Virus record (IMG/VR): IMGVR_UViG_3300005664_000056
Span: 1 to 28,301 of that record
Length of the DNA: 28,301 nt
Origin: a virus
Strand: one strand, 5' to 3'
This document shows, one piece after another, positions 3,049 through 27,982 of the stretch. The notes under the pieces are model-generated. The model saw nothing but the letters and a program-made list of their open reading frames with translations, made no database searches and was not told the DNA's origin. The position numbers were made by a program, and so were the translations under genes. The first letter of the stretch is position 1; the number at the start of each line of letters is the position of its first letter.

Positions 3049-3062
3049 GGCCCTCCATGGCC
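3049..3062 (-). promoter_or_regulatory. GGA-loop hairpin at RBS of the 3042 gene
   Basis: On the minus strand GGCC-ATGGAG-GGCC forms a four-pair GC stem with the Shine-Dalgarno GGAG in the loop, six bases before the ATG at 3042. The loop contains ATGGA, the ANGGA core of CsrA sites. Confidence 0.45.
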
Positions 3063-3075
3063 ATTAACTAAAAGT

Positions 3076-3102
3076 CAAGTGTGAACCAAATCATACCACT
3101 TG
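3076..3102 (-). promoter_or_regulatory. candidate extended -10 promoter inside an inverted repeat
   Basis: The minus strand carries TGGTATGAT (3090-3098), a good extended -10 element, upstream of the 3042 gene. It lies between the inverted arms CAAGTG (3076-3081) and CACTTG (3097-3102), 15 bases apart, which could form an operator. No convincing -35 is seen. Placement between two divergent genes supports a promoter region. Confidence 0.35.
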
Positions 3103-3137
3103 GGCACATGTAATGCTTATGCAACCTCTACCCAAAA

Positions 3138-3152
3138 CGGCCTGACAGGCCG
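3138..3152 (+). repeat. CGGCCT-N3-AGGCCG leader hairpin, copy A (csrA leader)
   Basis: CGGCCTGACAGGCCG forms a six-pair stem with a three-base loop, preceded by AAAA and followed by AATTCCCC. The hairpin ends 49 bases before the csrA start. Near-identical hairpins with the same flanks lie at 25190-25205 (+) and 15785-15800 (-), each in a gene leader. Confidence 0.7.
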
Positions 3153-3183
3153 AATTCCCCCATACCGGGTGGTCGTCATCCAA

Positions 3184-3199
3184 TAAGTCAGGAGACTTA
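3184..3199 (+). promoter_or_regulatory. perfect GGA-loop hairpin at the csrA RBS (candidate autoregulatory site)
   Basis: TAAGTC-AGGA-GACTTA is a perfect six-pair hairpin whose four-base loop is the Shine-Dalgarno core, two bases before the csrA ATG. This matches the known layout of CsrA sites, with GGA in an apical loop overlapping the RBS. Autoregulation of csrA is inferred. Confidence 0.65.
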
Positions 3200-3201
3200 C
3201 G

Positions 3202-3408
3202 ATGCTGTGCCTTAGCCGAAAAGTTAGTGAGCGGATCATTATTGACGGACGGATTGCGATTGAGATCCTAGCGATCACATCAGGCGGTCGAGTCCGGGTT
3301 GGCATCTCGGCCCCGCTGGATATTCCGATAGAGCGAGAGGAGCTTCTTGACCGGGACCGCGACACATTGTCCGATCCAGACCATCTTGGCTTGCAGACGT
3401 GCTCCTAG
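3202..3408 (+). CDS. csrA: CsrA/RsmA-family RNA-binding translational regulator
   Basis: A 68-residue protein that follows the CsrA fold end to end: N-terminal MLCLSRKVSERIIIDG, central IAIEILAIT, then RVRVGISAPLDIPIEREEL. Residues that contact RNA in characterised CsrA proteins are present (L4, R6, and R45, which is equivalent to E. coli R44). The tail after about residue 50 (RDRDTLSDPD...) is phage-specific. CsrA dimers bind GGA in hairpin loops and block or promote translation. The gene stands alone on the plus strand inside the minus-strand late block, with a structured leader holding a recurrent hairpin and an RBS hairpin of CsrA type. Its 3' end overlaps the end of the convergent 3280-3684 gene by 129 bases. 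It ends in TAG. Confidence 0.92.
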   Translation: MLCLSRKVSERIIIDGRIAIEILAITSGGRVRVGISAPLDIPIEREELLDRDRDTLSDPDHLGLQTCS

Positions 3409-3684
3409 GGTGTTGAGGGATTGCTCGCGTTCGATACAAGATCGGCAGTCCTTTTTACGAAGGAACCACGCCCATCGTTCCTTGTTGATGCCAATGACTT
3501 GTAGGCAAACATCCACCCAGCATCCGAGTTCCCACCAGCGGGGATAGGCTTTGCATAACCCTGGAACAATGCCATTACCCATAGGCACCCACGGGCCTTT
3601 ATTGAAACACCCCGGACGGACGCAGCAGAAGTGCTGTCGGCCGTCTCGTGGCAATTCAGAAGTTGGTTGCAGGTCGCATCTCAT
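3280..3684 (-). CDS. small Cys/Trp-rich protein after the tail genes
   Basis: A 134-residue protein starting at the ATG at 3684, which overlaps the upstream TGA (ATGA); an in-frame ATG at 3723 has no RBS. It is rich in Cys and Trp (CCVRPGC, YPRWWELGCWVDVC, KKDCRSC), suggesting metal sites or disulfides. A CxxC followed by R...LN near residue 95 recalls small zinc-binding proteins found beside tail genes in some phages. The last 43 codons are antisense to csrA, which is unusual because csrA is constrained there. No function is assigned. Confidence 0.65.
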   Translation of the reverse strand: MRCDLQPTSELPRDGRQHFCCVRPGCFNKGPWVPMGNGIVPGLCKAYPRWWELGCWVDVCLQVIGINKERWAWFLRKKDCRSCIEREQSLNTLGARLQAKMVWIGQCVAVPVKKLLSLYRNIQRGRDANPDSTA

Positions 3685-4280
3685 AGGGCAGTAACCAGCA
3701 TGGTTGAGGCGGAGTTGGAGCATCCGGCAGTACCAATGCCACCGCAGTTAGAAGCTGACTTTGTGGCCAATGACTCGCCGCTATACGCACCGCAGTCTGG
3801 CGAAGTGCCGCCTAGGCTGTTGACCCAAAACAGAGTGGCGTTGCTACAGTGCCCAGTTATGGAGCCTTGAGCGGTATAAGTTCCGCCGTTGCCGTCGATG
3901 TAAAACTGAATCGTAAGTGTTCCGCTACTAAACCCCCCGCACGTCACAGCCACCGCAGCGTGGGTTGTTTGCCAAATGCAACGCTGCTGCCCGCCATCGT
4001 CGATGCTGAGAGGGTCAAGAACGTATGTGAGGTCAAGGCTGCTACAGCTAGTGCATGTTCCACCGTCAGCAATTCCGCTCACATCGAGTTGAAACTGCCG
4101 CGTAAAATCCATGTCAGGATCGCAATAAGTGCAGTCACCGCCTCCGCAACAGCCACACCCTGGCCACCACCCGAACCCCGACCCCAACAGAATAATCCCG
4201 CACTCAGGGTGCAACGTGGACAAACATCCGACAGCTAACCACAGCAAGTAGAATCGAATTACGGGAACGACGTAGTTCAT
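3681..4280 (-). CDS. Cys-rich tail-region protein with hydrophobic N-terminus
   Basis: A 199-residue protein starting at the ATG overlapping the upstream TAA (TAATG); a start at 4295 is less likely. Residues 1 to about 35 are hydrophobic (YVVPVIRFYLLWLAVGC) and could be a signal or membrane segment. Then come a Cys/Gly knot (CGCCGGGDCTYC) and a beta-rich domain with paired cysteines (GGTCTSCSSLDLTYVLD ... CIW). The layout of a Cys cluster, a 'V.G....CTSC..L..TYVL' block and C-x-W resembles a family I associate with tail regions of Planctomycetota prophages (recollection). It is coupled to genes on both sides and is likely a minor tail or adsorption component. Confidence 0.7.
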   Translation of the reverse strand: MNYVVPVIRFYLLWLAVGCLSTLHPECGIILLGSGFGWWPGCGCCGGGDCTYCDPDMDFTRQFQLDVSGIADGGTCTSCSSLDLTYVLDPLSIDDGGQQRCIWQTTHAAVAVTCGGFSSGTLTIQFYIDGNGGTYTAQGSITGHCSNATLFWVNSLGGTSPDCGAYSGESLATKSASNCGGIGTAGCSNSASTMLVTAL

Positions 4281-4918
4281 TAGCAGGCCACCCACATGAG
4301 GATTGGGATACCGTTCCCTTGTGAAACCCCACAGTAGTTGTTGCTTAGTCCGGTAAGGGCTGTGGCACGATTAACGACTCCCGTGATGTTCATCGTGCTG
4401 TTGGTTTGGTAGGTGGTGCCAACATACACACTGACGGTGCAGGTTGATCCGACCGAAACGCTGGCGTCGTCTATCGTCCCGATCACAATAGGCGATCCGA
4501 CCCACCGAGCAATCGTGACGCTAGCCCCGGCAGCAGTGGTGTTGCCGCCCAGAATCTCAAAGCCATAGTAGTTCTTTGAGAGCGTGTGCTGGTTGTGCTT
4601 TGGCCCCCACACCTCTTTGATAGCAGGAGTCCCCGTGTCGTACCGCACGTAGTTAGGTTGGGCCAAGTCAGTGGCCAGGCCCTCATCCGAGGTGCCCAGG
4701 CCAATCGCAAAGGGGCCAGTAACCAGATACCCGTTCCAGTTGAAGTCGGTGTCGGCAGCGTTGGGCTTCCTGACCGTGTAGAGCATCTCATTGTTGGAGG
4801 CCGTCACGGTAGTGATCAGCACCACGGAGAACGGGGGAATCACGGCACCACTGGCGTTCTTCACCCGCAGCGGCCACCGGTCCCGTACCATTTGCCAGCG
4901 TTGGTCTAGTGGATTCAT
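4280..4918 (-). CDS. beta-rich minor tail protein
   Basis: A 212-residue protein. The N-terminal half (VKNASGAVIPPFSVVLIT, then VRKPNAADTDFNWNGYLVTGP) is beta-rich and ends in a WGPK...HTL...YYGFEILGG block; a Thr/Ser-rich beta tail follows. The arrangement resembles small structural proteins seen next to tail hub genes in environmental phages, but no enzymatic residues are apparent. The start overlaps the upstream TGA (ATGA) and the stop overlaps the next ATG, so it is co-translated with the hub-like gene before it and the Cys-rich gene after it. A fibre-tip or baseplate accessory role is inferred from position. Confidence 0.7.
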   Translation of the reverse strand: MNPLDQRWQMVRDRWPLRVKNASGAVIPPFSVVLITTVTASNNEMLYTVRKPNAADTDFNWNGYLVTGPFAIGLGTSDEGLATDLAQPNYVRYDTGTPAIKEVWGPKHNQHTLSKNYYGFEILGGNTTAAGASVTIARWVGSPIVIGTIDDASVSVGSTCTVSVYVGTTYQTNSTMNITGVVNRATALTGLSNNYCGVSQGNGIPILMWVAC

Positions 4919-6456
4919 TGGGCCTCCAAGAGACGTTCAACGGCTTGCCGGCGACGGCGTTCATTCAAGCTCAGACTAGACGTGTCCCCTTCGTAGTTCT
5001 CATAAACCGATGTGCGGATACCTAGGGTGGGCAGGATGTCCCACCGGGCCTGAGCGATCTTGCCGTCTAGCGTACCTGCGACCATACCCATGTAGGTGAT
5101 CTCGGAGGAAGCCGCGTCCTGGTACTTCTGCCGGAAGATGTCCACGTACTTATCGGCCTCGGTGTTGGCTTGGGCCTCGGTGTTCACCGTCGGGGAGTAG
5201 GCCGCATATAGCTCGGGCCGCTTCAGGATCAGGGCCCCTCCCGCTCCACCGATATTCCCCGACCGCACGATATGCACAGCCTGCCCGCCCTCATCCTTAA
5301 CCTTGTAGGACGTGTTCAGGTAGAAGGCCGGCTCTGAGTACCTCCCACTGGAGTCCAGCTTGAAGACCGGGAAGTCCGTATGCACGATCTTCCGCTCGGG
5401 ATACCACTCATACCCACCCGTCCAGCGAGCATCTGTGGTGTTGTTGGGGAGGTCCGTGTAGGCGTAGTAGTCCCCACTCAGATACATCGGTAAAGGCCTA
5501 GAGAATCCTTCCAGGTCCTTCTCGCTGTCCAACAGGTAATCGTTCAGGATGTACTGATCCATCTTTGTAACGTTCACCGGGCAGTTCGGTACCTGCGTGG
5601 TGCCGTCAGCCTGGCCTGTCACCCGGAAGTCCCGGAAGTAGCCCTCATAGGCATTACTGCGTCTGGTTGTAGTAGTGATGCTCGGGAAGGAGAACGGCGA
5701 CTCGGCCCCCACGGAAGCGTAGGGCAGGGCCTCCCAGTTGGTGATCAGCTTTTGGTCCCCGTTGTCGTTCCGCATCACCGTCCGGAGTTGGAGCTTTGTC
5801 TGATACAGGCTATCGCCGCCATGGACTTCTACCCGTGAGGGGATCTCCTTGCGGTTGTAGAACCGGTACTTCGGTAGAATCTCCGACAGGCCCGTCGGGC
5901 TGCTTTGGCCGGTGCCTAGCGGCCAGATCTCCACCCCATTCGATATCGGATTAAGGACCACCTCACATGCCACATAGTCGCAAAGAGCCTGTAGTGCTAA
6001 ATCTGCTCGCTGATTGCTCCACGCTGCTCTTGGGAACACTCCTGCTGGCATCCTGGATGTATCTATTGTTTCAGAGAGAGCCGTACCTAACAGATTTGCC
6101 AGTTCTGCTGGCGATTTTTGCGTCGATGTATCGAGCGTCCCGTCTGGCTTACGACGGTTGTAGTCGCCTGATATGGTCCGAAACTTCCACTGATACCGCC
6201 GATCAAACCCCACCACCGCCCACAGGGGGGCCTTCTGATCGTAGTGCTTCCTGATGAAGGACTCACTGAGGACGCATCCCGAGAGCGACAGGGTGTTGCC
6301 AGTGCTCCCCCAAGTCAGGGTCTGCTGTCCCAGATCCAGATTATTCTGGGGACGGACGTAGAGCGTGAACGCCGACGGAGAGACTCCTCGGGTAAGCGAG
6401 AGCGTAAGTCCTCGGATACCAGACAGACTTCCAAAGATGATCTCGGCTTGGGCCAT
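4915..6456 (-). CDS. tail hub / baseplate-like structural protein
   Basis: A 513-residue protein. The N-terminal part (FTLYVRP, LTWGSTGNTLSLSGCVL, WAVVGFDRRYQWKF) is a beta domain. Residues about 110-180 (SPAELANLLGTAL... ALQALCDYVACEVVLNP.SNGVEIWPLG) have the helix-strand pattern typical of domain 2 of gp27/gpD-type tail hubs. The remainder is mixed beta and includes a helical segment near 435-455 (AQANTEADKYVDIFRQKYQ). The ATG is four bases after the upstream stop with no SD of its own, pointing to reinitiation. It is probably the tail hub that joins the tube to fibres. The assignment rests on pattern and position, not on a catalytic motif. Confidence 0.55.
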   Translation of the reverse strand: MAQAEIIFGSLSGIRGLTLSLTRGVSPSAFTLYVRPQNNLDLGQQTLTWGSTGNTLSLSGCVLSESFIRKHYDQKAPLWAVVGFDRRYQWKFRTISGDYNRRKPDGTLDTSTQKSPAELANLLGTALSETIDTSRMPAGVFPRAAWSNQRADLALQALCDYVACEVVLNPISNGVEIWPLGTGQSSPTGLSEILPKYRFYNRKEIPSRVEVHGGDSLYQTKLQLRTVMRNDNGDQKLITNWEALPYASVGAESPFSFPSITTTTRRSNAYEGYFRDFRVTGQADGTTQVPNCPVNVTKMDQYILNDYLLDSEKDLEGFSRPLPMYLSGDYYAYTDLPNNTTDARWTGGYEWYPERKIVHTDFPVFKLDSSGRYSEPAFYLNTSYKVKDEGGQAVHIVRSGNIGGAGGALILKRPELYAAYSPTVNTEAQANTEADKYVDIFRQKYQDAASSEITYMGMVAGTLDGKIAQARWDILPTLGIRTSVYENYEGDTSSLSLNERRRRQAVERLLEAQ

Positions 6457-6460
6457 TGGC

Positions 6461-7801
6461 TCATGAGACGGTGATCGTCTTATCCTTCGGGATAACGATG
6501 GTTACTTCCGATGGGAGGCAGCCATTCAGCTTGAAGACGGGCCCCGAGACCCGCCCTTGAGGGTCGATGAATTTAGCTCCGGCATACATCTGAATCGTGT
6601 TGGTGACGGTGACCGTGCCATTTCCTCTGGAGAGGTCGAATGTCGATCCAAGAAGCTTCAGTGTGGTGTAAGTCGTTACGCCGTTGGGATAGTGAGTCCC
6701 TCCGTAGATATTTGCTGTCGTCACAGTGCCGGACTTGTGGGTCCAGGACCCGCCGTTCTGATTTGCGGTTGTTATGGCTGAGTTTGTCTCTTGGGTTCCC
6801 CCGTTCAAGGTTACTGTCGTCAGAGTGCAGCCACTGCCGCAGATTGTGGACGCGGCGGATTGTGGCCCGTCACCCGTTATCAGCGTTGCAACTGTCGCAG
6901 TTTCTCCGCCGAAGAAACCAATCCCAATATCACCAGCGAGGTTCCTGACGGTATTTGAGGCGTGGCTCCCCTTGAACAATACACATGGGACTCCCTGCTC
7001 AATACGGCTCCCCTTGCCGAAGATGTTCAAGGCCACTTGGCCGGCACCAGCATCCCACTTAAAGCGACCGCTCCCAGGACCATCGCCCACCTCCAGGTTG
7101 GCAGTGGTGGTCACTGAGTTATCGTCAGTCGTGAAGTAGGTGGTGCGGTATTCTTTGTACGGCTTGGCAGAGTTGTCAGTGTTGTACTCGGCAAGACCGA
7201 CGTTCCCTGTGTAGGACTTGTACTTCGTGATCGTGGCGAACTGACAGGTGGTGGACCCCGAGGCGTAGGTGTTCAGCCCCCACCGCACATCAAAGCTGCC
7301 GGTGTCGAAGATAAGGACGTCGTTGTCGGCCAACTGGGTATTGCTATCCAGGTTATCCACCTGATCGAGGTGGTACTGGCTGGTGGGGACCGTGATGGAT
7401 GAGATAGCCGCCGTACCCGTACTGGTCGTGCCGTCCCCAGTTACTGTGATCGTGAATGGCTTGCCGGCCAAAGCACCTGAACCATTGGCCGTCAGGTCCA
7501 CTTGGCTGGCCGTGCTGTTAGTGGCTGTGAACTCTGAGAACTGTGGAATAAGGGCGGCACCACCATCCGCCACAGGGATGGTGCATGATGCCGTGGTGTC
7601 CGTGAAAGTCGTTCCCGTCAGAGCCTGGAAGATCGTGGTGGCCACCTGGGCCGTCGTAACCAAGGTTCCAATCGTCAGGATGAAATCGACGTTGTTGACC
7701 GTAAGCGTGTAGGTATCACCAGCCGTCCACGTATTAGCTACGGTGATGCGACTGACCTGTTTGCGGTTCAAACTGGCCCCGGTGTAACGGGAGGTAGTCA
7801 T
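6461..7801 (-). CDS. beta-repeat fibre-like structural protein
   Basis: A 446-residue protein rich in Thr, Ser, Gly and Asn with short beta repeats. The first 130 residues (ITVANTWTAGDTYTLTVNNVDFILTIG ... ALAGKPFTITVTGDG) form an Ig-like domain seen in phage and cell-surface proteins. The C-terminal half has regular NGGT/YGGT turns (TLNGGTQETNS, NQNGGSWTHKSG, NIYGGTHYPNG) typical of a beta-solenoid fibre. It was probably displayed on the tail or capsid. It starts with its own SD in a GGA-loop hairpin, and the following gene begins four bases after its stop. Confidence 0.65.
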   Translation of the reverse strand: MTTSRYTGASLNRKQVSRITVANTWTAGDTYTLTVNNVDFILTIGTLVTTAQVATTIFQALTGTTFTDTTASCTIPVADGGAALIPQFSEFTATNSTASQVDLTANGSGALAGKPFTITVTGDGTTSTGTAAISSITVPTSQYHLDQVDNLDSNTQLADNDVLIFDTGSFDVRWGLNTYASGSTTCQFATITKYKSYTGNVGLAEYNTDNSAKPYKEYRTTYFTTDDNSVTTTANLEVGDGPGSGRFKWDAGAGQVALNIFGKGSRIEQGVPCVLFKGSHASNTVRNLAGDIGIGFFGGETATVATLITGDGPQSAASTICGSGCTLTTVTLNGGTQETNSAITTANQNGGSWTHKSGTVTTANIYGGTHYPNGVTTYTTLKLLGSTFDLSRGNGTVTVTNTIQMYAGAKFIDPQGRVSGPVFKLNGCLPSEVTIVIPKDKTITVS

Positions 7802-7803: not shown

Positions 7804-7817
7804 GTGTTTCCTTACAC
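7804..7817 (-). promoter_or_regulatory. GGA-loop hairpin at RBS of the fibre-like gene
   Basis: Minus strand GTGT-AAGGAA-ACAC: four pairs with the SD in a six-base loop, two bases before the ATG at 7801. The loop contains AAGGA (ANGGA). Confidence 0.5.
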
Positions 7818-9217: not shown

Positions 9218-10165
9218 TTATGCCGGATTTGAGTCAATCGTGAGCTCAAGCTCCCTCGTGGAGCCTGTCATGCGGGAGACGTAGTTGCTAACCAGGTCGA
9301 TCTCTTCCTTGCCGGAGACCACGGGGCTCTGGTTCACTAACTGAAGGACCCCGAACGTCCAGGCAATGCTGACATTGCCATTAGTCGCGGTGATCACGTT
9401 GTTGCTCGTAGGAGACGAGGACAGGGCCACCGCATCTAGGGCAGCCGTAGCTGAGTCGTACGGATGTCGGGTCTGGAGGCTGACCTTGCGGTGCATCGGA
9501 TACAGGATCGACGGCTCCACGCTGTTCACATACCGAGGACGCACATAGTTGTCGAGCACAATCGTGAACTGCTTAGTCTCGTACGCAGTATTAGAGATCT
9601 TGATAGCAGACGCCGTGTCTTCGAACACCATCGGGTAGAAGCTGCCGTCGGCCAGGGAGATGCTGGCTGTGGGTCCCGATGGGTTCTTCTGGTAGGCCAG
9701 AGCAATGATCGAGAGCTGGAGGATCAAGAAGTTCGGGGGGCCACCGGGGCCATTCTGCGTGCCACGGACCACTGCCTTCGTCACATAGCAGGAGCTGAAC
9801 TCGAACGTCGCCGTTACCTTGTCAATCAGAATTGCGAACGGCAGGAGAGCGTTTCCGTTGGTGGCGAAGCTGTACGTAGTAGAGACGGCCGTCTTACCCA
9901 TGAAGTAAGGGGCCCAGGTAGCCATCTCAGCCGGACTGACGCCGAACGTGATGGTGCCTGAGTAGACGCTCGGTCCTTTACGGGCCCGCTCACCGTGCTC
10001 TGACCGGTCCCCTGTGATGACCATTGGGTGGACGACCGAGCCGATGTACTGCATCGACTCCCGGTAGAACGGGTACGAGATGATCGTGCCGGTTGTCCAG
10101 TTAGGGACGCCAGCCCCATCTTTCAGATACAGCCTAGCTTTGGCTCCTTGAGCTTCCGATGCCAT
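9218..10165 (-). CDS. major tail tube protein
   Basis: A 315-residue protein with the architecture of siphovirus/myovirus tail tube proteins: an N-terminal strand (ARLYLKDGAG), a loop with ...RARKGPSVYSGTITFGVSPAEMATWAPYFMGK (about residues 60-95), where the 'G.v.G.i.f..sP.e....l...mG' pattern is typical, then paired beta strands with ATFEFSSCYVTKAVVRG. The C-terminal half repeats beta elements. The ATG at 10165 is preferred over an upstream TTG at 10177 because GGAG lies six bases before it and the start is presented in a hairpin. Presence of this gene implies a tail with a tube. Confidence 0.7.
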   Translation of the reverse strand: MASEAQGAKARLYLKDGAGVPNWTTGTIISYPFYRESMQYIGSVVHPMVITGDRSEHGERARKGPSVYSGTITFGVSPAEMATWAPYFMGKTAVSTTYSFATNGNALLPFAILIDKVTATFEFSSCYVTKAVVRGTQNGPGGPPNFLILQLSIIALAYQKNPSGPTASISLADGSFYPMVFEDTASAIKISNTAYETKQFTIVLDNYVRPRYVNSVEPSILYPMHRKVSLQTRHPYDSATAALDAVALSSSPTSNNVITATNGNVSIAWTFGVLQLVNQSPVVSGKEEIDLVSNYVSRMTGSTRELELTIDSNPA

Positions 10166-10172
10166 CCATGGC
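10161..10172 (-). promoter_or_regulatory. GGA-loop hairpin containing the tail tube start codon
   Basis: Minus strand GCCA-TGGA-TGGC: four pairs, and the loop A is the first base of the ATG at 10165. The ATGGATG string resembles the ANGGAUG core of CsrA sites. A separate GGAG lies just upstream as the likely SD. Confidence 0.4.
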
Positions 10173-11855: not shown

Positions 11856-11871
11856 GCTCCTTCCTTAGAGC
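11856..11871 (-). promoter_or_regulatory. GGA-loop hairpin at RBS of the connector gene
   Basis: Minus strand GCTCT-AAGGAA-GGAGC: four Watson-Crick pairs plus one G-U, loop AAGGAA (ANGGA). It lies four bases before the ATG at 11851. Confidence 0.45.
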
Positions 11872-12554: not shown

Positions 12555-12568
12555 CGGAATCCTTTCCG
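12555..12568 (-). promoter_or_regulatory. perfect GGA-loop hairpin at RBS of the 12550 gene
   Basis: Minus strand CGGAA-AGGA-TTCCG: a perfect five-pair stem with AGGA in a four-base loop, four bases before the ATG. The AAGGA core matches ANGGA. Confidence 0.6.
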
Positions 12569-15807: not shown

Positions 15808-16272
15808 CTAGACTTCAACAGTGGCCTTCTTCTTGGCCTTGCCTAGTTTCTCCTCGATGAGGATGGCTCGCTCTTCCGCCTTCTTAGCAAAGGCCTTAGC
15901 GGCATCCTTCGCCTTCTGTTCGGCTTCGATCAGGGCGTTCTCCCGTTTAGCCAACTCCGCTTCATGCACTTCATAGGCATCAGCCGGGGCCTCACGGGGA
16001 AAGCTCCACGAACCGCTGTTCTTGGTGGTCTCGTTGGGCTTGTCGTGAATCCAGTGGGTAGTGTGGTGACAGCCCGCCTTGTGCTGGAGCATCCCATTGA
16101 ACGGGTAGACAGTGACCTTAATGCGGCCAGGTCCTTCTACCTCCGATACGATAGCGGGAGCGGCGTTCCGCTTGTCCCCATAGGCGTGGTAGATAACGCC
16201 ATCACTGACTTTCGGGGTCGGCTGGAGCCTCTGTCGCTGTTCCGCTAACTGGTTCCACACTTCGCTGCTCAT
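15808..16272 (-). CDS. hypothetical protein between large terminase and portal
   Basis: A 154-residue protein. The first 90 residues are beta-rich and include VYPFNGMLQHKAGCHHTTHW, with a Cys-His-His cluster that might bind metal. The last 55 residues (EAELAKRENALIEAEQKAKDAAKAFAKKAEERAILIEEKLGKAKKKA) form a clear coiled coil. The start at 16272 has an SD (AGGAAAGGA) and a hairpin; an opening at 16305 does not. Small proteins of this layout often lie between terminase and portal in environmental phages. It ends in TAG. Confidence 0.7.
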   Translation of the reverse strand: MSSEVWNQLAEQRQRLQPTPKVSDGVIYHAYGDKRNAAPAIVSEVEGPGRIKVTVYPFNGMLQHKAGCHHTTHWIHDKPNETTKNSGSWSFPREAPADAYEVHEAELAKRENALIEAEQKAKDAAKAFAKKAEERAILIEEKLGKAKKKATVEV

Positions 16273-16365: not shown

Positions 16366-18132
16366 TCATACTGACTGTCCCGGCCCCATGTTCACGTAAC
16401 CGTCGGTCTCTTTCTCTAGCTCAGCCTTAAGCTGCTTGGCAGCGTGGTAGGCCAGGCTCCCCGTACTGCGATAGCTATCCGGTGGAATATAAGCTATCCC
16501 GTCACGGAACCGACCATAAATATACTCGCTCAGGTACTCAACAGCCATTACGCAGTCGTACAGCCGCTCAGCCTGACCGTCATCCGTGGGCACCGGATTC
16601 CCTTCCGGGTCCTTCACCACTGCCTTCCGGAAGGCCCGGATCTCTTTCATGGTGGACGGGCAGCGGTAGGAGAACATCAGCCGGGGCCAGCCATTCTCGG
16701 TTGGCTCCATGAGATCCCGAACCGTTCTCCGTCGCAGGGCCTTATCGTTACAGCCCCGCATGAACCCACTATTCGTGGTTCTGCTAATGAGCCCCCTAGT
16801 CCTAAACTCTCGCTCGTAGGCTGCGAAGACGGTGACGTCCGAGGCTACGGTAGTCTGCCGGCCGATCATCTGATCCATGATGAAGGCTTCGAAGCGGAAC
16901 CCACCTACCCGATCCTTGACGGCATCAGCCAGCATGGCGGGGGTGTACTTCCGGACGATGATCTCTTCTTCAATGATCAGGCGGTTCCCTAGGTCGAGCT
17001 CCTCGGGAGGCGGCACCACCCCAATCAGGCAGGCTGTCCGGGTATGGCTGGGGTCGATGACTAGGTACCGGGTCCAGTGCGGGGGGAACCGGGTCGGGTC
17101 ATTGGTCAGCATGTTGCAGAGCGTCTGGTGCGGATTCTCTGGCTTCTCGACTTGCTTAGGCCGGACCTCGTGGATCGCTGCCCCGAAGTTGTACATCTGC
17201 CGGCCGCTGATGAACGAACTGATATCGCCCTGGTTACGGTGGGCCTCGTCATCGTCATCGTCCATACGGGCCAGCATCTGCTGGATACCCTTACGGTCGG
17301 AGTAGGGATTGTCGGAGCCAATGAGCCGGAAGACTTCGATAGGCTTCTCGGGGTTGTCCTTCTCCCGCTCCGCCCGGTCGAGCGTCTTGATCAGGGCCTC
17401 GTTCGCTACCTGGGGCCACACGGACCACAGGAACCAGCCGCACGTTGTCGCGAGACGGTCCTGCCATTCCTTTAAGAACGAGCTCTTCTCAATGTCTTCG
17501 TCTATCCAGATCCCGTCTACCGCATCACCCTTCTTCGGGGCGTCGCCGGTACTCGGATAGGCACAAATCGTCACCCCATTCTTGAGACGGACTGACCGGA
17601 AGACGTGGCCCGCCGCACTCTCCATGTGCCAGGAGCCGGGCTCGATCATGTGCTCCCCAAAGAGAGGCGGTGATAGCTCACTGTCGTTGTATCGCTCCCG
17701 GTCATAGTTCGGGTTATAGGCCCGCCACTTGTGAGTCTGGAGGTCCTGGATGATCCGGAAGTTGGCACCGTCCCCGAGGCCAGGAGAGAATAGGCGGTGA
17801 TAGAGGGTTTGGCCAATGTGATTGACGTCATACCCAATCACCCAATACAGACCAGGGTTGCGTTTAGATGGGGCACGGAAGCGGAGCGGGATCTTAGTTC
17901 CGTCTTGACGGGTAATAGGGATGCCAAGAATGCGGCTTCCCAGCTCTAAAACCACACTCAACGTTTTTCCTGACCGCTTCCCACCAATTGTGAGGACTTC
18001 AGACGCCGGAGATTCGTGTACGGGGAGCTGGAACTCAGTAGGACGGTAGACCTCCAGTGGATGCTTCTCGTACTGTTCCAGGGCATGGATGCCCTTTTGG
18101 ATATCAGCGAGTTGGTGCTTAAGGTTGGCCAT
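16366..18132 (-). CDS. terL: terminase large subunit (packaging ATPase and nuclease)
   Basis: A 588-residue protein. Walker A is GGKRSGKT (residues 50-57). Walker B is IWIDED (about 208-213), with D211 and the catalytic E212. The nuclease domain begins near residue 355 with LVIDPSHT (D360), continues with AFIMDQ (D420), and ends with a third acidic site in RLYDCVMAVEYL near 560. It powers DNA translocation through the portal and cuts the concatemer. Its start overlaps the small-terminase stop (TAATG). The length is normal for the family and all expected motifs are present, so it should be active. Confidence 0.95.
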   Translation of the reverse strand: MANLKHQLADIQKGIHALEQYEKHPLEVYRPTEFQLPVHESPASEVLTIGGKRSGKTLSVVLELGSRILGIPITRQDGTKIPLRFRAPSKRNPGLYWVIGYDVNHIGQTLYHRLFSPGLGDGANFRIIQDLQTHKWRAYNPNYDRERYNDSELSPPLFGEHMIEPGSWHMESAAGHVFRSVRLKNGVTICAYPSTGDAPKKGDAVDGIWIDEDIEKSSFLKEWQDRLATTCGWFLWSVWPQVANEALIKTLDRAEREKDNPEKPIEVFRLIGSDNPYSDRKGIQQMLARMDDDDDEAHRNQGDISSFISGRQMYNFGAAIHEVRPKQVEKPENPHQTLCNMLTNDPTRFPPHWTRYLVIDPSHTRTACLIGVVPPPEELDLGNRLIIEEEIIVRKYTPAMLADAVKDRVGGFRFEAFIMDQMIGRQTTVASDVTVFAAYEREFRTRGLISRTTNSGFMRGCNDKALRRRTVRDLMEPTENGWPRLMFSYRCPSTMKEIRAFRKAVVKDPEGNPVPTDDGQAERLYDCVMAVEYLSEYIYGRFRDGIAYIPPDSYRSTGSLAYHAAKQLKAELEKETDGYVNMGPGQSV

Positions 18133-18674: not shown

Positions 18675-20326
18675 ACATCTCCAGATGCTCTGAGTTTGTA
18701 ACCGTTGTTCTCAGCGAACTCATCGACCATCCGACGGAGCTTAGGAGTCTCATACCCCAGTCCCGCCAGCAAGCCGCCTTCCGTGATGTGCTTGAACCAG
18801 GTCTCCAGCTTCTCTTCCGTCAGAGACCGCTCGATAAACACCAAGTCCAGGTGATGCTGGTCTTCAGGATAAGGGAACTTTCTGCCAGACAGGTCGGCCA
18901 TTACCCGTCCTGATTCTAGCTCGTGCTGAAAGCTCTTCGCAAACTGCTCGGCCGGCTCGGTGCTGAACTGGTAGGTCAGCGTAGAGTCGAGGGCGTACAG
19001 GTGCGATCCTTCCGGGAGTCCTTCCAGGATGGCGGCAGCCGATTGACCGGAGCCGGCGTGAGCTACGGCCACTTCAATGGGCCCATCGTTCTTCTCAACC
19101 AGCCAGTTCGTGAGGGCGGCGATGTTGTCGATGGACTCGTTGCTGATTTCGGTAGGGATAGCAGCTACCTTATAGCCACCGACAATACGGTGCTTGAGGG
19201 CGTGGCCGTTCTGCTTCTCTAGGGCGATAGCCACTGAGTTCTCAACACCAGCCATCTCGGCGTGGGTATTCACCAAGGGCGGAGTGCCATTAGTCACTAT
19301 CGGCTCGTTGTCGAGCTTGACGTCGGCATACTGACTGCCGGTTTCCTTTTCTCGTTCCATGAGGACGCGAGCTTCTTCCAGATCTTCCGGGGAGAGATAG
19401 ACCTCATTCTGATCGTGACGCAGGGTCTGGCCCCGCCGACCGATATGGTCAGGTAGATTGCTGGTGTAGTCCACAATTCGCTTCTCGTCTTGGATTGACG
19501 TGTTGCAGTTCAGGGCCTCTCGCATCTCTTCGGCCACAATCTCCAGAGTAGCCACCCGGGGCTTACCAACCCGCTTTGGCTTGTTGTGCAGAGCCCAGGA
19601 GTTGCAAGCAGCGAAGCAGACGTCGTAACCCTTCTTGATCTTCCAGTACACGCTCAGGTTGCGGGTGGCGAAGCAGTCTTCTGTTCCCCGCTTCTCACAC
19701 TTGTCCTTGTCGTGCTCGTAGTCGAAGAACGGCTTAGGGGGGCCATCGAAGATGTTCGTGGTGAATAGGCAGCAACCCGTAGGCAGCGACGACATCGGGT
19801 GAATGCCAGCCAGCTTCTCAGCCTCACGGCGAGTCAGCATCTCTTGCTTCCAGCCCGAGTCCAGGCCGTTCGTCTCTACGTTGGTCCACTGGAAGAGATA
19901 CGGCACCTCACCACCATCACTGATGCCAGGACGGTTGATCGGGTGCGGGGGAGGACCGCAGTAGGGAGCCGCAATGACAGTCGGGATGCCCTGCTTCAGC
20001 CGGTCAAAGGCGAAGGTGAAGGCCTCGTCCAAGAACAGCTTGGCAGAGGGGTCCTTGCCGTAGTAGGCATCTGGCTCGTTGTCCGAGTCCAGCATCAGCA
20101 GCATATCGCAGCCGGCTTCCTTGGCCTCACGTACGGCCAGATTCCTGGTCATATACACCGGGGTATCCGAGTAGATTCCCACTACCACCGTCTCGACCCG
20201 TGGGTCATTGAGCAGTCGGTTGTAGGCCTTACCCCACCAGACCATGAGTTCAGGGATGACCGAAGACACTCCGCCGTTACCACCGTACGCATAGATGGCA
20301 ACTGCGATCCGTACCGTGCTTTTCAT
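18656..20326 (-). CDS. glycosyltransferase fused to a Rossmann methyltransferase-like domain
   Basis: A 556-residue protein with two domains. Residues 1-260 form a GT-A type glycosyltransferase: strands up to the DSD motif (MLMLDSDNEPD, D80-D82), the metal and nucleotide-sugar binding site, and a Cys-rich middle. Residues about 385-556 resemble a class I methyltransferase: VAVAHAGSGQSAAAILEGLPEGS, then LYALDS, then LDLVFIERSLTEEKLETWFKHITEGGLLAGLGY, as in Methyltransf_24 proteins, though the usual DG(D/N)H is replaced by ERS. It could glycosylate a virion or host surface component. It lies between the capsid terminator and the terminase genes and overlaps terS. Confidence 0.72.
   Translation of the reverse strand: MKSTVRIAVAIYAYGGNGGVSSVIPELMVWWGKAYNRLLNDPRVETVVVGIYSDTPVYMTRNLAVREAKEAGCDMLLMLDSDNEPDAYYGKDPSAKLFLDEAFTFAFDRLKQGIPTVIAAPYCGPPPHPINRPGISDGGEVPYLFQWTNVETNGLDSGWKQEMLTRREAEKLAGIHPMSSLPTGCCLFTTNIFDGPPKPFFDYEHDKDKCEKRGTEDCFATRNLSVYWKIKKGYDVCFAACNSWALHNKPKRVGKPRVATLEIVAEEMREALNCNTSIQDEKRIVDYTSNLPDHIGRRGQTLRHDQNEVYLSPEDLEEARVLMEREKETGSQYADVKLDNEPIVTNGTPPLVNTHAEMAGVENSVAIALEKQNGHALKHRIVGGYKVAAIPTEISNESIDNIAALTNWLVEKNDGPIEVAVAHAGSGQSAAAILEGLPEGSHLYALDSTLTYQFSTEPAEQFAKSFQHELESGRVMADLSGRKFPYPEDQHHLDLVFIERSLTEEKLETWFKHITEGGLLAGLGYETPKLRRMVDEFAENNGYKLRASGDVWAIPK
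18676..18687 (-). promoter_or_regulatory. GGA-loop hairpin at RBS of the small terminase gene
   Basis: Minus strand CATC-TGGA-GATG: four pairs, loop TGGA with the SD core, one base before the ATG at 18674. Confidence 0.45.
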
Positions 20327-20334: not shown

Positions 20335-20375
20335 CAAAATAAAAGCCCCCTCGGTGTACGGAGCACCGAGGGGGC
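20335..20375 (-). terminator. strong intrinsic terminator after the capsid genes
   Basis: On the minus strand arms GCCCCCTCGGTG and CACCGAGGGGGC form a perfect twelve-pair stem with a seven-base loop, followed by CTTTTATTTT. It lies between the 20477 gene and the glycosyltransferase, only eight bases from the next start, so it likely lowers transcription of the downstream packaging genes relative to the capsid genes. Confidence 0.8.
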
Positions 20376-21153: not shown

Positions 21154-21753
21154 TCAAAGTCCTGATTGAATGGGGTTCTTAACCAACGGGCCGTTTAATA
21201 TCCGTGAGGCCCACACCATCATTTCTTCATCGGACATCACACTCTTCATCCAATTAGCTGCCTTACAAACCAGCCGCACATTGGACTCCGTGTAACCAAT
21301 CGCATTGTCTATGCGGTCGATTGTCACGTTCGTGTAAACGCCCTTCCCTTGGCCTTGGATGTGTGTCATCGGAATCCCGGTTATTGCACACTTACCGTCC
21401 TGCTCTCTCCACCTACGCATGAGCAGCTCGTGTGTCACCTCTGATTCCGCAGCCATCAACCTCCGCCTCACGGTGTTTCTTCGCTGGCCAGACGTGGCTT
21501 TATGGGCCCGCCAAAGACATCGAAGATAAGCATCCGTGTTTTCAGTTTTGTAAGTTCTGGTTCTCTTCGTGTTGCATGAGTTGCATCTAGTTTCTCTGCC
21601 ATTTGCTGTGTGCCTGGCTGGATAAAAGTTCTCCAGTGGGACCCACAGATGACAGCTAGAGCACTCTTGCTTTCCGTCGATCACCAGCTTCTTTGGCCTA
21701 CCGGCTTTTTTGCCGTTAGGCACATACGATAATTCACTACTGCTTGTACCCAT
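21154..21753 (-). CDS. HNH homing-type endonuclease
   Basis: A 199-residue protein. It opens with an AT-hook-like KAGRPKKL (about 16-23), continues with a zinc ribbon CSSCHLWVPLENFYP...RCNSC (about 31-60), and has a C-terminal HNH-type region: DGKCAITGIPMTH, then NVTIDRIDNAIGYTESNVRLVCKAANWMKS. Free-standing HNH endonucleases insert beside conserved phage genes and cut alleles lacking the insert. Here the gene sits between the major capsid and its partner. The ATG at 21753 is preferred over an opening at 21804 because of the strong AGGAGG, itself in a hairpin. Confidence 0.85.
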   Translation of the reverse strand: MGTSSSELSYVPNGKKAGRPKKLVIDGKQECSSCHLWVPLENFYPARHTANGRETRCNSCNTKRTRTYKTENTDAYLRCLWRAHKATSGQRRNTVRRRLMAAESEVTHELLMRRWREQDGKCAITGIPMTHIQGQGKGVYTNVTIDRIDNAIGYTESNVRLVCKAANWMKSVMSDEEMMVWASRILNGPLVKNPIQSGL

Positions 21754-21816: not shown

Positions 21817-22929
21817 TCAAGCATAATTTTTGAGTTTGGCCAAAAACTTAGGACTTAAACTGCACTGGCCGTAGAATCCCGAGGCCCACAGAGCGGCAAA
21901 GCCAGCCCGAGGATCTTCGGTGGGTCCACGCATCCAGAACAGTTCCGGCATCCAGGAGGCGATCTCCACGGTGCTGGTGTTGACCATGTAGCCGGTGTTG
22001 GCCGGGCAATCGAAGTCCGCACTGATCGTGCAACCGTCTTGGTTCAACACGTTGCCGGCGAAGCCCAGGTCATTGGCCGTCTTGGCGGGAACCGAGATTC
22101 GGCGGATGGCCTCTTCGTGGTTCTTGTAGGCCTGGAACAGGTTGGGAGCCAGGGAGCAGATCTCGGGCATTCCATCGTCGCCACCTTGGATGGTGAGCCA
22201 GGTGATGGTCTGACCGATCACACGCCAGCAGTTGTCCTCGAACGTGGTGGAGCCGGTGCCCCAGCCCGTGCTGGACCAGTTCACCAGTTTCGGTGAGAAG
22301 TAATCGTATTCCACATCGCCCTGTCCATCCGGCCAGTCGTTGGCCAGCGTGGCATTGGGGGAAGTCGTGAGGTTGGCACTCCACGTTCCGCCTTGATTGG
22401 CGAGAGCCGTCGAGAGACCCGCATAGGTCGTGCTCGGTTCAGCGATGCGGTCACCAGCAGCAGGAGCCGTTCGCTCCGTGAGGCAGGTTTCCAAACCATA
22501 GATGGCGTTCTCACGGCCAGCGGTGCCACCCGCCTTGTACACTTCCGAAGCCAGACCGTTCTGGAGCTTCTTCATGATGCGGCCTTGCTTGGTCTTGAAC
22601 AGATTGATGAGGGCTTCCTCACCGCTATTCATCGCCTTCTGCTTCATGGTGATCGAGTCCGAGACTTGATAACCCGAAACAGGGAGCACCGCCTGTTGGA
22701 AGGCTTGGTGGTTCGAGAAGTCGATCATCGAGCCATCGCCGTGCTGGTGCATGGTGGGCTGCGAGAATTCGATCTGCCAGCGGAATTCATAGCCGCTGTT
22801 GTTGTAGGTGATCCGGCCCTTCTTCTTGAGCATCGCCAAGAAGAGACGACGGCGGATCGTCATATCCGAAGCACCCTTCATGTAGGCGGGCTTCGTGGTA
22901 TTGATTACGCCAATCCATTCGTCAGACAT
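21817..22929 (-). CDS. major capsid protein
   Basis: A 370-residue protein immediately after the scaffold gene. The N-terminus (IGVINTTKPAYMKGASDMTIRRRLFLAMLKKKGRI) is helical. The middle (VLPVSGYQVSDSITMKQKAMNSGEEALINLFKTKQGRIMKKLQNGLASEVYKAGG) has the long spine-helix pattern of HK97-fold capsid proteins. Trp/Thr-rich strands follow (TGWGTGSTTFEDNCWRVIGQTITWLTIQGG), and then CSLAPNLFQAYKNHEEAIRRI. The order scaffold then capsid, and the size, support the call. The leader has three hairpins, one with the SD in its loop. Confidence 0.82.
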   Translation of the reverse strand: MSDEWIGVINTTKPAYMKGASDMTIRRRLFLAMLKKKGRITYNNSGYEFRWQIEFSQPTMHQHGDGSMIDFSNHQAFQQAVLPVSGYQVSDSITMKQKAMNSGEEALINLFKTKQGRIMKKLQNGLASEVYKAGGTAGRENAIYGLETCLTERTAPAAGDRIAEPSTTYAGLSTALANQGGTWSANLTTSPNATLANDWPDGQGDVEYDYFSPKLVNWSSTGWGTGSTTFEDNCWRVIGQTITWLTIQGGDDGMPEICSLAPNLFQAYKNHEEAIRRISVPAKTANDLGFAGNVLNQDGCTISADFDCPANTGYMVNTSTVEIASWMPELFWMRGPTEDPRAGFAALWASGFYGQCSLSPKFLAKLKNYA

Positions 22930-22930
22930 C

Positions 22931-22948
22931 TTTAGCTTCCTTGCTAAA
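22931..22948 (-). promoter_or_regulatory. perfect GGA-loop hairpin at the major capsid RBS
   Basis: Minus strand TTTAGC-AAGGAA-GCTAAA: a perfect six-pair stem with the whole SD in a six-base loop, one base before the ATG at 22929. CAAGGA matches the centre of the CsrA consensus. Confidence 0.65.
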
Positions 22949-22973
22949 AGCCAGTCACAGGGCAGGCCGCCAG

Positions 22974-24167: not shown

Positions 24168-24181
24168 AGGATTCCGTTCCT
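24168..24181 (-). promoter_or_regulatory. GGA-loop hairpin at RBS of the scaffold gene
   Basis: Minus strand AGGA-ACGGAA-TCCT: four pairs with ACGGA (ANGGA) in the loop, directly adjoining the ATG at 24167. The SD-like AGGA also forms the 5' arm. Confidence 0.4.
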
Positions 24182-24804: not shown

Positions 24805-24806
24805 CC

Positions 24807-25085: not shown

Positions 25086-25101
25086 ATGCAGCAGTGAGCC
25101 C

Positions 25102-25175: not shown

Positions 25176-25189
25176 CCTTTAATACAAAT

Positions 25190-25205
25190 CGGCCTGTGTA
25201 GGCCG
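25190..25205 (+). repeat. CGGCCT-N4-AGGCCG leader hairpin, copy B (25242 leader)
   Basis: CGGCCTGTGTAGGCCG, followed by AATTCCCC and then GGGTGG. This leader matches the csrA leader over most of its length: stem, AATTCCCC, GGGTGG, and AGGAG with ACTTA before the ATG. The hairpin ends 36 bases before the ATG at 25242. Confidence 0.7.
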
Positions 25206-25223
25206 AATTCCCCTCAAATGGGT

Positions 25224-25240: not shown

Positions 25241-25241
25241 A

Positions 25242-25748: not shown

Positions 25749-26614
25749 CTAAGGCTCGGTTTAAGCCCAAGGTGGGATACGTTCCCTCGGTGTACGTCTA
25801 TACGATGCGGACCCCGCACAGTCTGTGCTTCCGGGATATGGAGCTACGGGCCAAGAGCTACCTGACGATGCTCCGCTTTAATAAGCACCCCGTAAAAGAA
25901 GCCAAAGAGGTGAAGCGGTTTCGGGAGGCCCTGTCCCTGAAAGCGGCACGGCGTTCGATCTTGGACCGGGAGGTAGGCGGGGACCTACTGAAGAACATTA
26001 TGCAGCCAGGGGACTATCTGATTGTGAATTCCCTGACAGATGCGTTCATGAAGGAGGAGGACCTGGTGACGGTGATGAACCGGTTCCAGGAGCGGGAGCA
26101 GCACCTACACGTGTTGGACTTCTATGGTGCAGCAGTAGATTGCAGCAGCCCCTCGGGCCAGATCCTCCTCGGTAATATGCGGATGATCCATCAATACAAT
26201 CGGGACTATCGGCGGAAGGTCACGGACAGCGTGCGGACGCGGGCACGGGCAATAACGCGGCTCGCGGGCGGGCGGACGCCTTTCTTCTGTGAGGCCATCG
26301 AGAGTCATGGAGAGATCCGTCTGATCCTCAAGAGCTGGGCCATCCCCGCCGCCGAAGTCATTGGGAAGTACCGGCACAGCGACAACCCCAGTGAGCGGGT
26401 GAAGTACCCGGTCATTGCGGGCCAGCTAACCAAGGCAGGGCTCGGGGCGGGGTGGAAGAAGGACCCGAAGAGCCTGGACGAGCTGTACCACTTCTGGCGT
26501 GCCTGGGTGGCTGCCGGGAGGCCTGACGTCAATACACTGAAGTTCCCCGACTTTATTTACGAGTACCGCTCCCTCATGGCCCGAGGCCTAGTCAATGAAA
26601 ACAATCACGTTTGA
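25745..26614 (+). CDS. degenerate serine-recombinase-fold protein
   Basis: A 289-residue protein. The block LLKNIMQPGDYLIVNSLTDAFMKEEDLVTVMNRFQEREQHLHVLDFYGAAVDCSSPSGQILLGNMRMIHQYNRDYRRKVTDSVRTRARA matches the resolvase/invertase core: 'GD.lvv..lDR..R...dl', then 'vDt.tp.G.l....a...e..r....e..r...'. Catalytic positions are altered: the D-R-x-x-R element reads D-A-F-M-K, and the N-terminal Y-x-R-x-S reads Y-T-M-R-T. It is therefore probably not a recombinase in the usual sense. It overlaps its neighbours by 4 and 20 bases. The C-terminus (about 205-289) is unfamiliar, possibly DNA-binding. Confidence 0.6.
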   Translation: MTKARFKPKVGYVPSVYVYTMRTPHSLCFRDMELRAKSYLTMLRFNKHPVKEAKEVKRFREALSLKAARRSILDREVGGDLLKNIMQPGDYLIVNSLTDAFMKEEDLVTVMNRFQEREQHLHVLDFYGAAVDCSSPSGQILLGNMRMIHQYNRDYRRKVTDSVRTRARAITRLAGGRTPFFCEAIESHGEIRLILKSWAIPAAEVIGKYRHSDNPSERVKYPVIAGQLTKAGLGAGWKKDPKSLDELYHFWRAWVAAGRPDVNTLKFPDFIYEYRSLMARGLVNENNHV

Positions 26615-27263
26615 GGTCGATGACAAGAAGCACAACCTGTTCATCCTGGACGACTACCTCAGCATGGACTGTGCCAAGAACATCATTACGGGCAAGAGCT
26701 ACCCATTCCCGGAGTGGTTTGGCAAGCAGCACCAGCAGCCCAAGGTGGTGATCGACATTGGCGGCCACGTCGGGGAGTTCGCTGCCATGGCCCGCATTAA
26801 CTGGCCCAAAGCAGAGATCCACGTCTTCGAGCCCAACCCGGAAGTCATCCCGGTCCTTAAGCTGAACGCCGAGATCTACGACTTCAAGATCTACCAGATG
26901 GCAGTCTCGGATAAGGGCGGCACCACCGATCTGTGCATTAGTGGGTACGGATCTGTGGCCAACTCCATTGTGGATCGGCCCAACCAGACCGGGGAGAAAG
27001 TCACGGTCAACGTGGCGGACGCCAAGGACCTGATGCGGCTGAAGCCCAACGTCCTGAAGGTGGATGCCGAGGGAGTGGAGGTGCAGATCCTCGGGCGGAT
27101 GGACCTACCTAGCATCGAGCTGATCTACCTAGAGTTCCACTCCGAGGGGGACCGCCTGACCATCGAGCAGATGCTGCGTCCCACCCATTCCCTATTCCAC
27201 GCCAACATTGGCCACAAAGACCAAGGAGAACTGATGTATGTCCGCAGAAAGACCAACCTGTAA
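26595..27263 (+). CDS. FkbM-family SAM-dependent methyltransferase
   Basis: A 222-residue protein. Motif I is VVIDIGGHVGEF (51-62), followed by the acidic FEPNPE (78-83) that holds the SAM ribose. The FkbM signature VLKVDAEGVEVQILGRM and the strand IELIYLEFH follow (about 153-180). FkbM enzymes O-methylate sugars or other metabolites. It starts inside the end of the recombinase-like gene, so the three genes from 25242 form one translational unit. A role in modifying a glycan or phage surface is inferred, and the fused glycosyltransferase at 18656 might supply the substrate. Confidence 0.85.
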   Translation: MKTITFEVDDKKHNLFILDDYLSMDCAKNIITGKSYPFPEWFGKQHQQPKVVIDIGGHVGEFAAMARINWPKAEIHVFEPNPEVIPVLKLNAEIYDFKIYQMAVSDKGGTTDLCISGYGSVANSIVDRPNQTGEKVTVNVADAKDLMRLKPNVLKVDAEGVEVQILGRMDLPSIELIYLEFHSEGDRLTIEQMLRPTHSLFHANIGHKDQGELMYVRRKTNL

Positions 27264-27504
27264 GAGCTGTATCTATTGGGATGGCGGATACTGCCGCAGC
27301 CAGTCGCCGAAGCAGAAGGACGGAGAGGCGGCCTGGCCGTACTCCCAGCCAACTGATTGGTGTGGCGAGCACCAGGACTTCATCAAGTGGATGCACGGCT
27401 TAAAAGAAGTCAACTTACTCACAGGCGGAAAGGCTTTGGTGCAAACATGCGAGTCCGGTTCGTCGGCGGCCCCTGGCACAATCGACTCCAAGACACCGAC
27501 CTAG
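27238..27504 (+). CDS. small Cys-rich protein
   Basis: An 88-residue protein with CKSCIYWDGGYCRS and, further on, DWCGEHQDF: a CxxC...C...C pattern typical of small zinc-binding proteins in phage accessory regions. The second half is Gly/Ser/Thr-rich and low in signal. The ATG at 27238 has AAGGAG nine bases upstream and lies inside the end of the methyltransferase gene. No function is known. Confidence 0.7.
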   Translation: MSAERPTCKSCIYWDGGYCRSQSPKQKDGEAAWPYSQPTDWCGEHQDFIKWMHGLKEVNLLTGGKALVQTCESGSSAAPGTIDSKTPT

Positions 27505-27710
27505 GCCCGGTCTGGCAAGTGATGAGAGAGGGTAAGGGCGGAGCCGGAAACCGGGAGAAGTACCACCTCCACCGGTTCCGCACCTCACGCGGCACCCGCT
27601 ACGTCCAATACATCCACGAGAGCTTACTAGCCAACAACGGCAAACCCGACCCCTGTGCTTACAAGGAGCGATTCAAGAAATGGAACTTGTCTATCTCATC
27701 TTTGCCCTGA
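27447..27710 (+). CDS. small protein with 'VRFVGGPW' motif
   Basis: An 87-residue basic protein starting MRVRFVGGPWHNRLQD, a beginning shared by many small phage proteins of unknown function. The middle (KYHLHRFRTSRGTRYVQYIH) is basic and beta-rich. The frame is open from 27357, but the ATG at 27447 fits the family start. It overlaps the Cys-rich gene before it by 58 bases in a different frame. Confidence 0.6.
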   Translation: MRVRFVGGPWHNRLQDTDLGPVWQVMREGKGGAGNREKYHLHRFRTSRGTRYVQYIHESLLANNGKPDPCAYKERFKKWNLSISSLP

Positions 27711-27766
27711 AGGCAGCCGCCATCATCTACACCTTTGCCCACGCCCCATGGGATAAGAAGCGTTAG
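27680..27766 (+). CDS. possible 28-residue membrane miniprotein
   Basis: ATG at 27680 to TAG at 27764-27766 encodes MELVYLIFALKAAAIIYTFA followed by HAPWDKKR: one hydrophobic helix with a basic end. AAGGAG lies 11 bases before the ATG. It overlaps the end of the previous gene. Too short to be sure. Confidence 0.4.
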   Translation: MELVYLIFALKAAAIIYTFAHAPWDKKR

Positions 27767-27966
27767 GGCTTCCTCGGGTCGCCGGGGTTCTTGCAGTACT
27801 CCCATACCGCCAACCTGATCAGCTCCGATATCGTCATCTCCGCGTCATCCGGGAACTCCCGCATCCACTTCAGCTTCTCCTCGATGACCTCCTTCACATG
27901 CGGACTGAACCGCACCTTATAGATCAGAGTACGCTGGGAACCGGCCGGCTGCTTCTTGAACGCCAT
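27763..27966 (-). CDS. ribbon-helix-helix-like protein
   Basis: A 67-residue protein starting at the ATG at 27966 (an opening at 28095 has no RBS and an unlikely sequence). The pattern TLIYKVRFSPHVKEVIEEKLKWMREF...MTISELIRLAVWEY has a strand followed by two helices with 'SELIR.AV.EY', as in Arc/CopG repressors. These bind DNA as dimers through the strand. It is transcribed away from the next gene, and paired TGTGGTCTA repeats lie in the gap upstream. It may be a repressor for this region. Confidence 0.6.
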   Translation of the reverse strand: MAFKKQPAGSQRTLIYKVRFSPHVKEVIEEKLKWMREFPDDAEMTISELIRLAVWEYCKNPGDPRKP

Positions 27967-27969
27967 ACA

Positions 27970-27982
27970 AACGCTCCACGTT
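27970..27982 (-). promoter_or_regulatory. GGA-loop hairpin at RBS of the ribbon-helix-helix gene
   Basis: Minus strand AACG-TGGAG-CGTT: four pairs with the SD GGAG in a five-base loop, three bases before the ATG at 27966. Confidence 0.4.

Follow-up and report, generated by a model that had tools for sequence, protein, structure and literature searches.

The stretch of DNA analysed here, referred to in its whole length of 28,301 nucleotides as the window (virus record IMGVR_UViG_3300005664_000056), is a 28.3-kb viral sequence with the look of a tailed phage and mostly unnamed genes, and it carries both a csrA gene and a set of hairpins that present a GGA in the loop at the starts of many of its genes. 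Gene starts were called in this analysis and are not annotated ones. The csrA product belongs to the CsrA/RsmA family, as its match to PF02599 lies above the curated cut-off, and the equivalents of the RNA-contact residues L4, R6, and R44 are invariant when it is aligned with the CsrA of Escherichia coli and those of three other phages. Relatives were located by capsid-protein scans, which gave 2 syntenic phages, G009 (IMGVR_UViG_3300020202_000068; capsid 81% identical) and G011 (IMGVR_UViG_3300019458_000006; capsid 76% identical), and a fragment, L048, with a capsid 60% identical to that of the window. The window, G009, and G011 are the clade members with long contigs, and all 3 encode csrA. 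The hairpins of G010 are the same as those of G011, and it was left out as a separate count. Neither the CsrA nor the terminase-like protein of the window had a tblastn match in the phage collection.

The recurring element consists of 2 bases, GGA, and 1 base (a hexaloop, NNGGAN) closed by 4 to 7 pairs. It was found in strict form at 9 genes of the window, those starting at 3042, 3202 (csrA), 7801, 11851, 12550, 15755, 18674, 22929, and 24167, where the GGA is that of the ribosome-binding site (the Shine-Dalgarno core) or of the start codon (Table 1). The original prediction had listed 14 starts preceded by a GGA loop of 4 to 7 bases closed by a stem of 4 or more pairs, with a shorter version at 16272, and all 15 leaders could be read as described. 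Among the 37 candidate starts of the window, 27 have a GGA at positions −15 to +1. Under a loose criterion (loop of 4 to 7 bases, at least 4 pairs), 16 hairpins were observed compared to 6.1 ± 2.1 in dinucleotide-shuffled flanks (0 of 2000 shuffles as high). In the strict CsrA register (the GGA preceded by 2 loop nucleotides and followed by 1, with 4 or more pairs), the 9 observed compare with 1.33 in shuffled flanks (0/3000 as high) and with 1.07 when the 5′ and 3′ arms were swapped between genes (0/20,000 as high), so that the shuffled leaders put forward as a check fell short of the real ones.

The excess of GGA loops lies almost entirely in the hexaloop register, and the number of loops outside it (21753, 24807, 25242, 27966, and also 25676) is close to the chance expectation. 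The predicted set of 15 genes is strong for about 11, namely the 9 canonical ones plus 10165 and 16272, whose strict-register stems are no longer than 3 pairs yet are kept in relatives, while the remaining 4 are non-canonical and no commoner than chance. These approximately 11 genes are the well-supported target set. Hairpins had also been claimed for most independently initiated genes and for none of 9 coupled ones. As to the first claim, 20326, 21103, and 24252 are independent genes without a hairpin. The second is true as counted, but in 6 of the 9 the absence is automatic because there is no GGA near the start, leaving 4918, 10655, and 13329 as genes that have a GGA and no hairpin.

Table 1. 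Main genes of the window and GGA hairpins at its gene starts, with counterparts in related phages
Feature	Position	Strand	Hairpin (arm-loop-arm)	Remarks
csrA gene, 68 aa	3202-3408	+		Pfam PF02599, 57.1 bits vs cut-off 27
Portal-like gene, 809 aa	13326-15755			Weak matches to phrog_332 and SU10_portal
Probable large terminase gene	16366-18132			From position and size; no family match
Major capsid gene	21817-22929			PHROG 9953 'major head protein'
Gene 3042 leader operator	3049-3062	-	GGCC-AUGGAG-GGCC	G011 counterpart by position beside csrA, GUGG-AAGGAA-CCAC
csrA leader operator	3184-3199	+	UAAGU-CAGGAG-ACUUA	Canonical hexaloop, 5 pairs
Gene 7801 leader operator	7804-7817	-	GUGU-AAGGAA-ACAC	G011 ortholog, ACGCC-AAGGAU-GGUGU
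Gene 10165 three-pair hexaloop across start	10161-10172	-	GCC-AUGGAU-GGC	G009 ortholog, GAGC-AAGGAU-GCUC
Gene 11851 leader operator	11856-11871	-	GCUCU-AAGGAA-GGAGC	G009 ortholog, CAGCC-AUGGAG-GGCUG
Gene 12550 leader operator	12555-12568	-	CGGA-AAGGAU-UCCG	Three-pair versions in G009 and G011
Portal-like gene 15755 operator across start codon	15749-15764	-	UGAGC-AAGGAU-GCUCG	Identical in G011; AGGC-AAGGAC-GCCU in G009; GACA-ACGGAG-UGUC in L048
Gene 16272 three-pair hexaloop	16274-16285	-	GGA-AAGGAA-UCC	GGA-AAGGAU-UCC in G009; GGA-AAGGAU-UUC in G011
Gene 18674 leader operator	18675-18688	-	GCAU-CUGGAG-AUGU	None seen in G009 or G011
Gene 21753 (HNH-like) non-canonical GGA loop	21756-21769	-	AACC-UCAGGA-GGUU	Loose criterion only, not beyond chance
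Major capsid gene 22929 leader operator	22930-22949	-	UUUUAGC-AAGGAA-GCUAAAG	CUUUUC-AAGGAU-GAAAAG in G009 and G011; GUAAGG-AAGGAG-CCUUGU in L048
Gene 24167 leader operator	24168-24181	-	AGGA-ACGGAA-UCCU	G009, UUCGC-AGGGAA-GCGAA
Gene 24807 non-canonical GGA loop	24788-24804	+		Loose criterion only, not beyond chance
Gene 25242 non-canonical GGA loop	25223-25241	+		Loose criterion only, not beyond chance
Gene 27966 non-canonical GGA loop	27970-27982	-	AACG-UGGAG-CGUU	Loose criterion only, not beyond chance

At orthologous leaders, the stems have changed while the hexaloop has been kept. When G009, G011, and L048 were compared with the window, the hexaloop was retained and both stem arms were rewritten at the capsid and portal genes and at 7801, 11851, 24167, and 10165. 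The same was seen between relatives at an ortholog of 21103 (GAGAA/UUCUC in G009 and GGAA/UUCC in G011, with no hairpin in the window) and at a gene of approximately 3.5 kb that lies outside the region covered by the window (GAUUCC/GGAAUC in G009 and CUUC/GAAG in G011; protein identity 53%). These stem changes at homologous positions are compensatory, as the original prediction had expected of related phages, and they bear out its statement that the structure is kept rather than the bases.

To count leaders without reference to folding, we picked starts by Shine-Dalgarno strength alone. Canonical leaders made up 5/26 in the window, 11/77 in G009, 9/65 in G011, and 4/13 in L048, compared to 0/56 in G012, 0/38 in G013, 1/35 in PTXU04, 1/29 in phi297, 0/28 in Vibrio 219E41.2, and 0/37 in PA8. 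The clade formed by the window, G009, and G011 thus has 25/168 versus 12/513 in other csrA-positive phages (Fisher P = 2e-8). In the pooled table of registers, the CsrA register accounts for 25 hairpins, the 2 registers on the same symmetry axis for 15 and 12, and the rest for 0 to 7 each. Three broader origins of the pattern were examined and rejected. It is not a general property of csrA-positive phages, since 24 further csrA-positive viral loci gave 10/290 against 7.5 expected and PTXU04, phi297, PA8, and Vibrio 219E41.2 are flat; nor of the likely host, as far as one planctomycete metagenome-assembled genome (MAG) represents it (1/73); nor of the whole phage family, because G012, G013, L047, L051, and L053 to L055 are without it, although L048 has it. 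On the capsid tree, L048 falls on a separate branch outside the clade of the window, and its leaders may reflect either loss elsewhere or independent gain. The single canonical hairpin of PTXU04 (ACGCC-ACGGAU-GGCGU) precedes PTXU04_00036 (L064:35189-35869, minus strand), which adjoins a putative DNA polymerase gene.

Base preferences within the loops were compared with those of the non-hairpin leaders of the same phages, because an A at loop position 1 is partly favored by the Shine-Dalgarno sequence too. Position 1 is A in 21/25 hairpin sites versus 53/143 non-hairpin leaders, and position 6 is the Shine-Dalgarno-like G in 8/25 versus 83/143. With A preferred at the first position and G avoided at the last, the loops seem to be adapted to CsrA in addition to the ribosome. 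CsrA ligands obtained by systematic evolution of ligands by exponential enrichment are mostly hairpins with a 6-base loop and at most 4 contiguous pairs, nuclear magnetic resonance structures of RsmE contain an ANGGAN hexaloop, and added loop bases reduce affinity (PMC7652899). RsmA binds a hairpin with the loop AAGGAU, and its R44A substitution nearly abolishes binding (PMC4066749). Judged by its sequence, the window element is the published CsrA/RsmE ANGGAN hexaloop, in agreement with the established binding of CsrA to GGA in hairpin loops on which the original prediction was built (PMC7652899).

Together, these results suggest a CsrA regulon of the phage itself, and we consider it likely that the regulon represses the virion genes and csrA by covering their ribosome-binding sites. 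Genes with a ribosome-binding site of their own, chiefly the heads of virion blocks (capsid, portal, and neighbors), would carry the operator, CsrA dimers bound to the loop would keep the 30S subunit away, and translational coupling would extend the effect to the downstream genes, which mostly have no GGA themselves. Because the GGA either forms the core of the Shine-Dalgarno sequence or spans the start codon, CsrA and the 30S subunit would be mutually exclusive, which makes repression the likeliest effect. Since csrA has the same operator as the virion genes, it likely also represses itself and would thereby be limited. Virion translation would begin once late mRNAs, multiplied by replication, outnumber the CsrA dimers. 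The sequences themselves show that the phage encodes a CsrA and that operators are present, are enriched, prefer certain loop bases, and are conserved by compensatory change; what we infer is binding of CsrA to the loops, the phage protein and not host CsrA as the main ligand, repression, and release by titration. Control of the virion genes as a set, as originally proposed, is supported by this evidence, but the set reaches further, since hairpin leaders in the relatives extend beyond the virion block to an HNH-like gene and to the 3.5-kb gene, whose function is not known.

Several observations weigh against such a regulon. The csrA leader hairpin occurs in the window only, G009 and G011 having no canonical equivalent; G012 and G013 encode csrA, yet are without such leaders; L048 has the leaders, but no csrA was seen on that fragment. 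When 50-nucleotide leader fragments were folded, the predicted minimum-energy structure was the hairpin in only about half of the cases. Rfam searches of pieces of the sequence gave no match to a sponge RNA of the CsrB/RsmZ type, and no dense intergenic cluster of canonical hexaloops was found that could act as one.

One alternative is that GGA hairpins are common by chance once G-U pairs and variable loops are allowed, and indeed the loose criterion alone yields about 6/27, which accommodates the 4 non-canonical loops. As the source of the canonical set, chance was ruled out by the arm-swap, shuffle, and register controls; the strict register gave 9 compared to 1.07 to 1.33, and this, the difference between the clade and other csrA-positive phages, and the compensatory changes leave the explanation with hardly any credibility. 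A more serious competitor is tuning without CsrA, in which hairpins present or partly mask the Shine-Dalgarno sequence to set the expression level. Structure at the Shine-Dalgarno core or start codon affects initiation in any gene, and the GGA is always in one of these places. However, such tuning needs neither the spacing of 2 bases before and 1 after the GGA, nor an A at loop position 1, nor a last loop base unlike the Shine-Dalgarno sequence, and related phages and other csrA-positive phages do without the hairpins. We therefore regard it as improbable.

Of the alternatives, the one we find least unlikely, though still doubtful, is that host CsrA is the main regulator acting on the operators, so that the phage senses host physiology while its own copy adds dosage or acts elsewhere. 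The binding specificity is broadly common to CsrA proteins, and the leaders of L048 are without a csrA in view, L048 being a fragment. The capsid protein has a single cellular relative (61% identity, L055, JAAYDI010000075.1), which lies in G018, a Planctomycetaceae MAG with 6 csrA genes, a hint that the phage family infects Planctomycetota; a capsid search of 294 genomes of the planctomycete phylum returned only this already known MAG. In contrast, all 3 clade members with long contigs encode csrA, the csrA of the window itself has an operator, and the leaders of the candidate-host MAG are not enriched. A further possibility concerns direction, with CsrA activating its targets through mRNA protection or the opening of weak structure, since CsrA is known to stabilize mRNA and to open a Shine-Dalgarno hairpin in ymdA (PMC7652899). 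With the GGA placed as it is here, the usual outcome is exclusion of the ribosome (PMC7652899), and we consider activation very improbable.

Other features of the window and its relatives were noted alongside the operators. A hairpin of the form CGGCCT-N3..4-AGGCCGAAT is repeated at 3138-3155 (plus strand), 25190-25208 (plus strand), and 15800-15785 (minus strand), where it precedes csrA, gene 25242, and the portal-like gene, respectively, always on the strand of the gene; none was seen upstream of G009 or G011 genes, and it is possibly a promoter, operator, or terminator element. A terminator-like element, in which a run of T comes after a GC-rich inverted repeat, lies at approximately 20337-20375 (minus strand), directly ahead of gene 20326. 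The HNH/endonuclease VII-like gene at 21154-21753 (minus strand) adjoins the capsid gene, has no ortholog in the relatives, and is probably a mobile endonuclease. The portal open reading frame of G009 (G009:C1:52874-56383, minus strand; equal to L031:14874-18383) encodes 1169 aa, compared to 809 for its counterpart in the window, and matches PHROGs for thymidylate synthase, ribonucleotide reductase, and endonuclease; the extra length and these matches suggest an intein. Weak CsrA-like domains, below the Pfam cut-off, are present in longer open frames of the more distant relatives L015 and L016 (G005 and G004) and L057 (G017).

Phage-encoded CsrA has been catalogued before, in 30 phages (PMC7366521) and in further work (PMC8450108), including PTXU04_00028 (PMC11879866), and knockdown of the PTXU04 csrA reduces plaque size (PMC11879866). 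The published proposals for these proteins concern host processes such as CRISPR-Cas (PMC7366521, PMC8450108, PMC11879866). The window shares with these cases a csrA gene on a phage genome, whereas PTXU04, phi297, PA8, and Vibrio 219E41.2 are without the operator set. Phage csrA genes are thus already known, and what appears new is a set of CsrA operators on the virion genes of the phage itself, as neither such a set nor a phage CsrA self-regulon was found described in the open-access literature, which misses most subscription journals and preprints. The closest mobile-element case is CsrT of Legionella integrative conjugative elements, which, as cited in PMC7366521, has been suggested to control the element itself. 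To the extent of that citation, both are mobile elements with a CsrA-type regulator of their own, but CsrT belongs to a conjugative element and not a phage; the comparison covers the regulator. Bacterial Csr/Rsm regulons (CsrA, RsmA, and RsmE) have in common with the window the protein family, the ANGGAN hexaloop on a short stem, and sites over ribosome-binding sites (PMC7652899), and differ in that the regulator here is phage-encoded and would be aimed at the phage's own virion genes, with no CsrB-type sponge RNA found.

In its proposed mode of working as a phage-wide translational repressor, the system most resembles RegA of T4, a small phage protein that competes with the ribosome for the initiation regions of approximately 30 phage mRNAs and so represses them (PMC3014915). 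It is not a member of the RegA type, since the protein is a CsrA and the operators are hairpins; RegA recognizes A+U-rich unstructured sites (PMC3014915), in contrast to the structured hexaloops described here. It is also an unrelated protein and acts on non-late transcripts. We are evenly divided on the broader view that a DNA phage lineage took over a global regulator of translation from bacteria and reorganized its gene expression around it, with operators on virion and other genes making CsrA a master switch in the manner of RegA, released according to transcript number, so that virion synthesis would be timed by titration at translation and not only by late promoters. The operator set would make the likely targets of a phage CsrA, its own virion genes, readable from sequence, would give phage CsrA a directly testable function, and would offer a natural collection of CsrA sites for specificity studies, as well as a second example of a phage-wide translational regulator beside T4 RegA.

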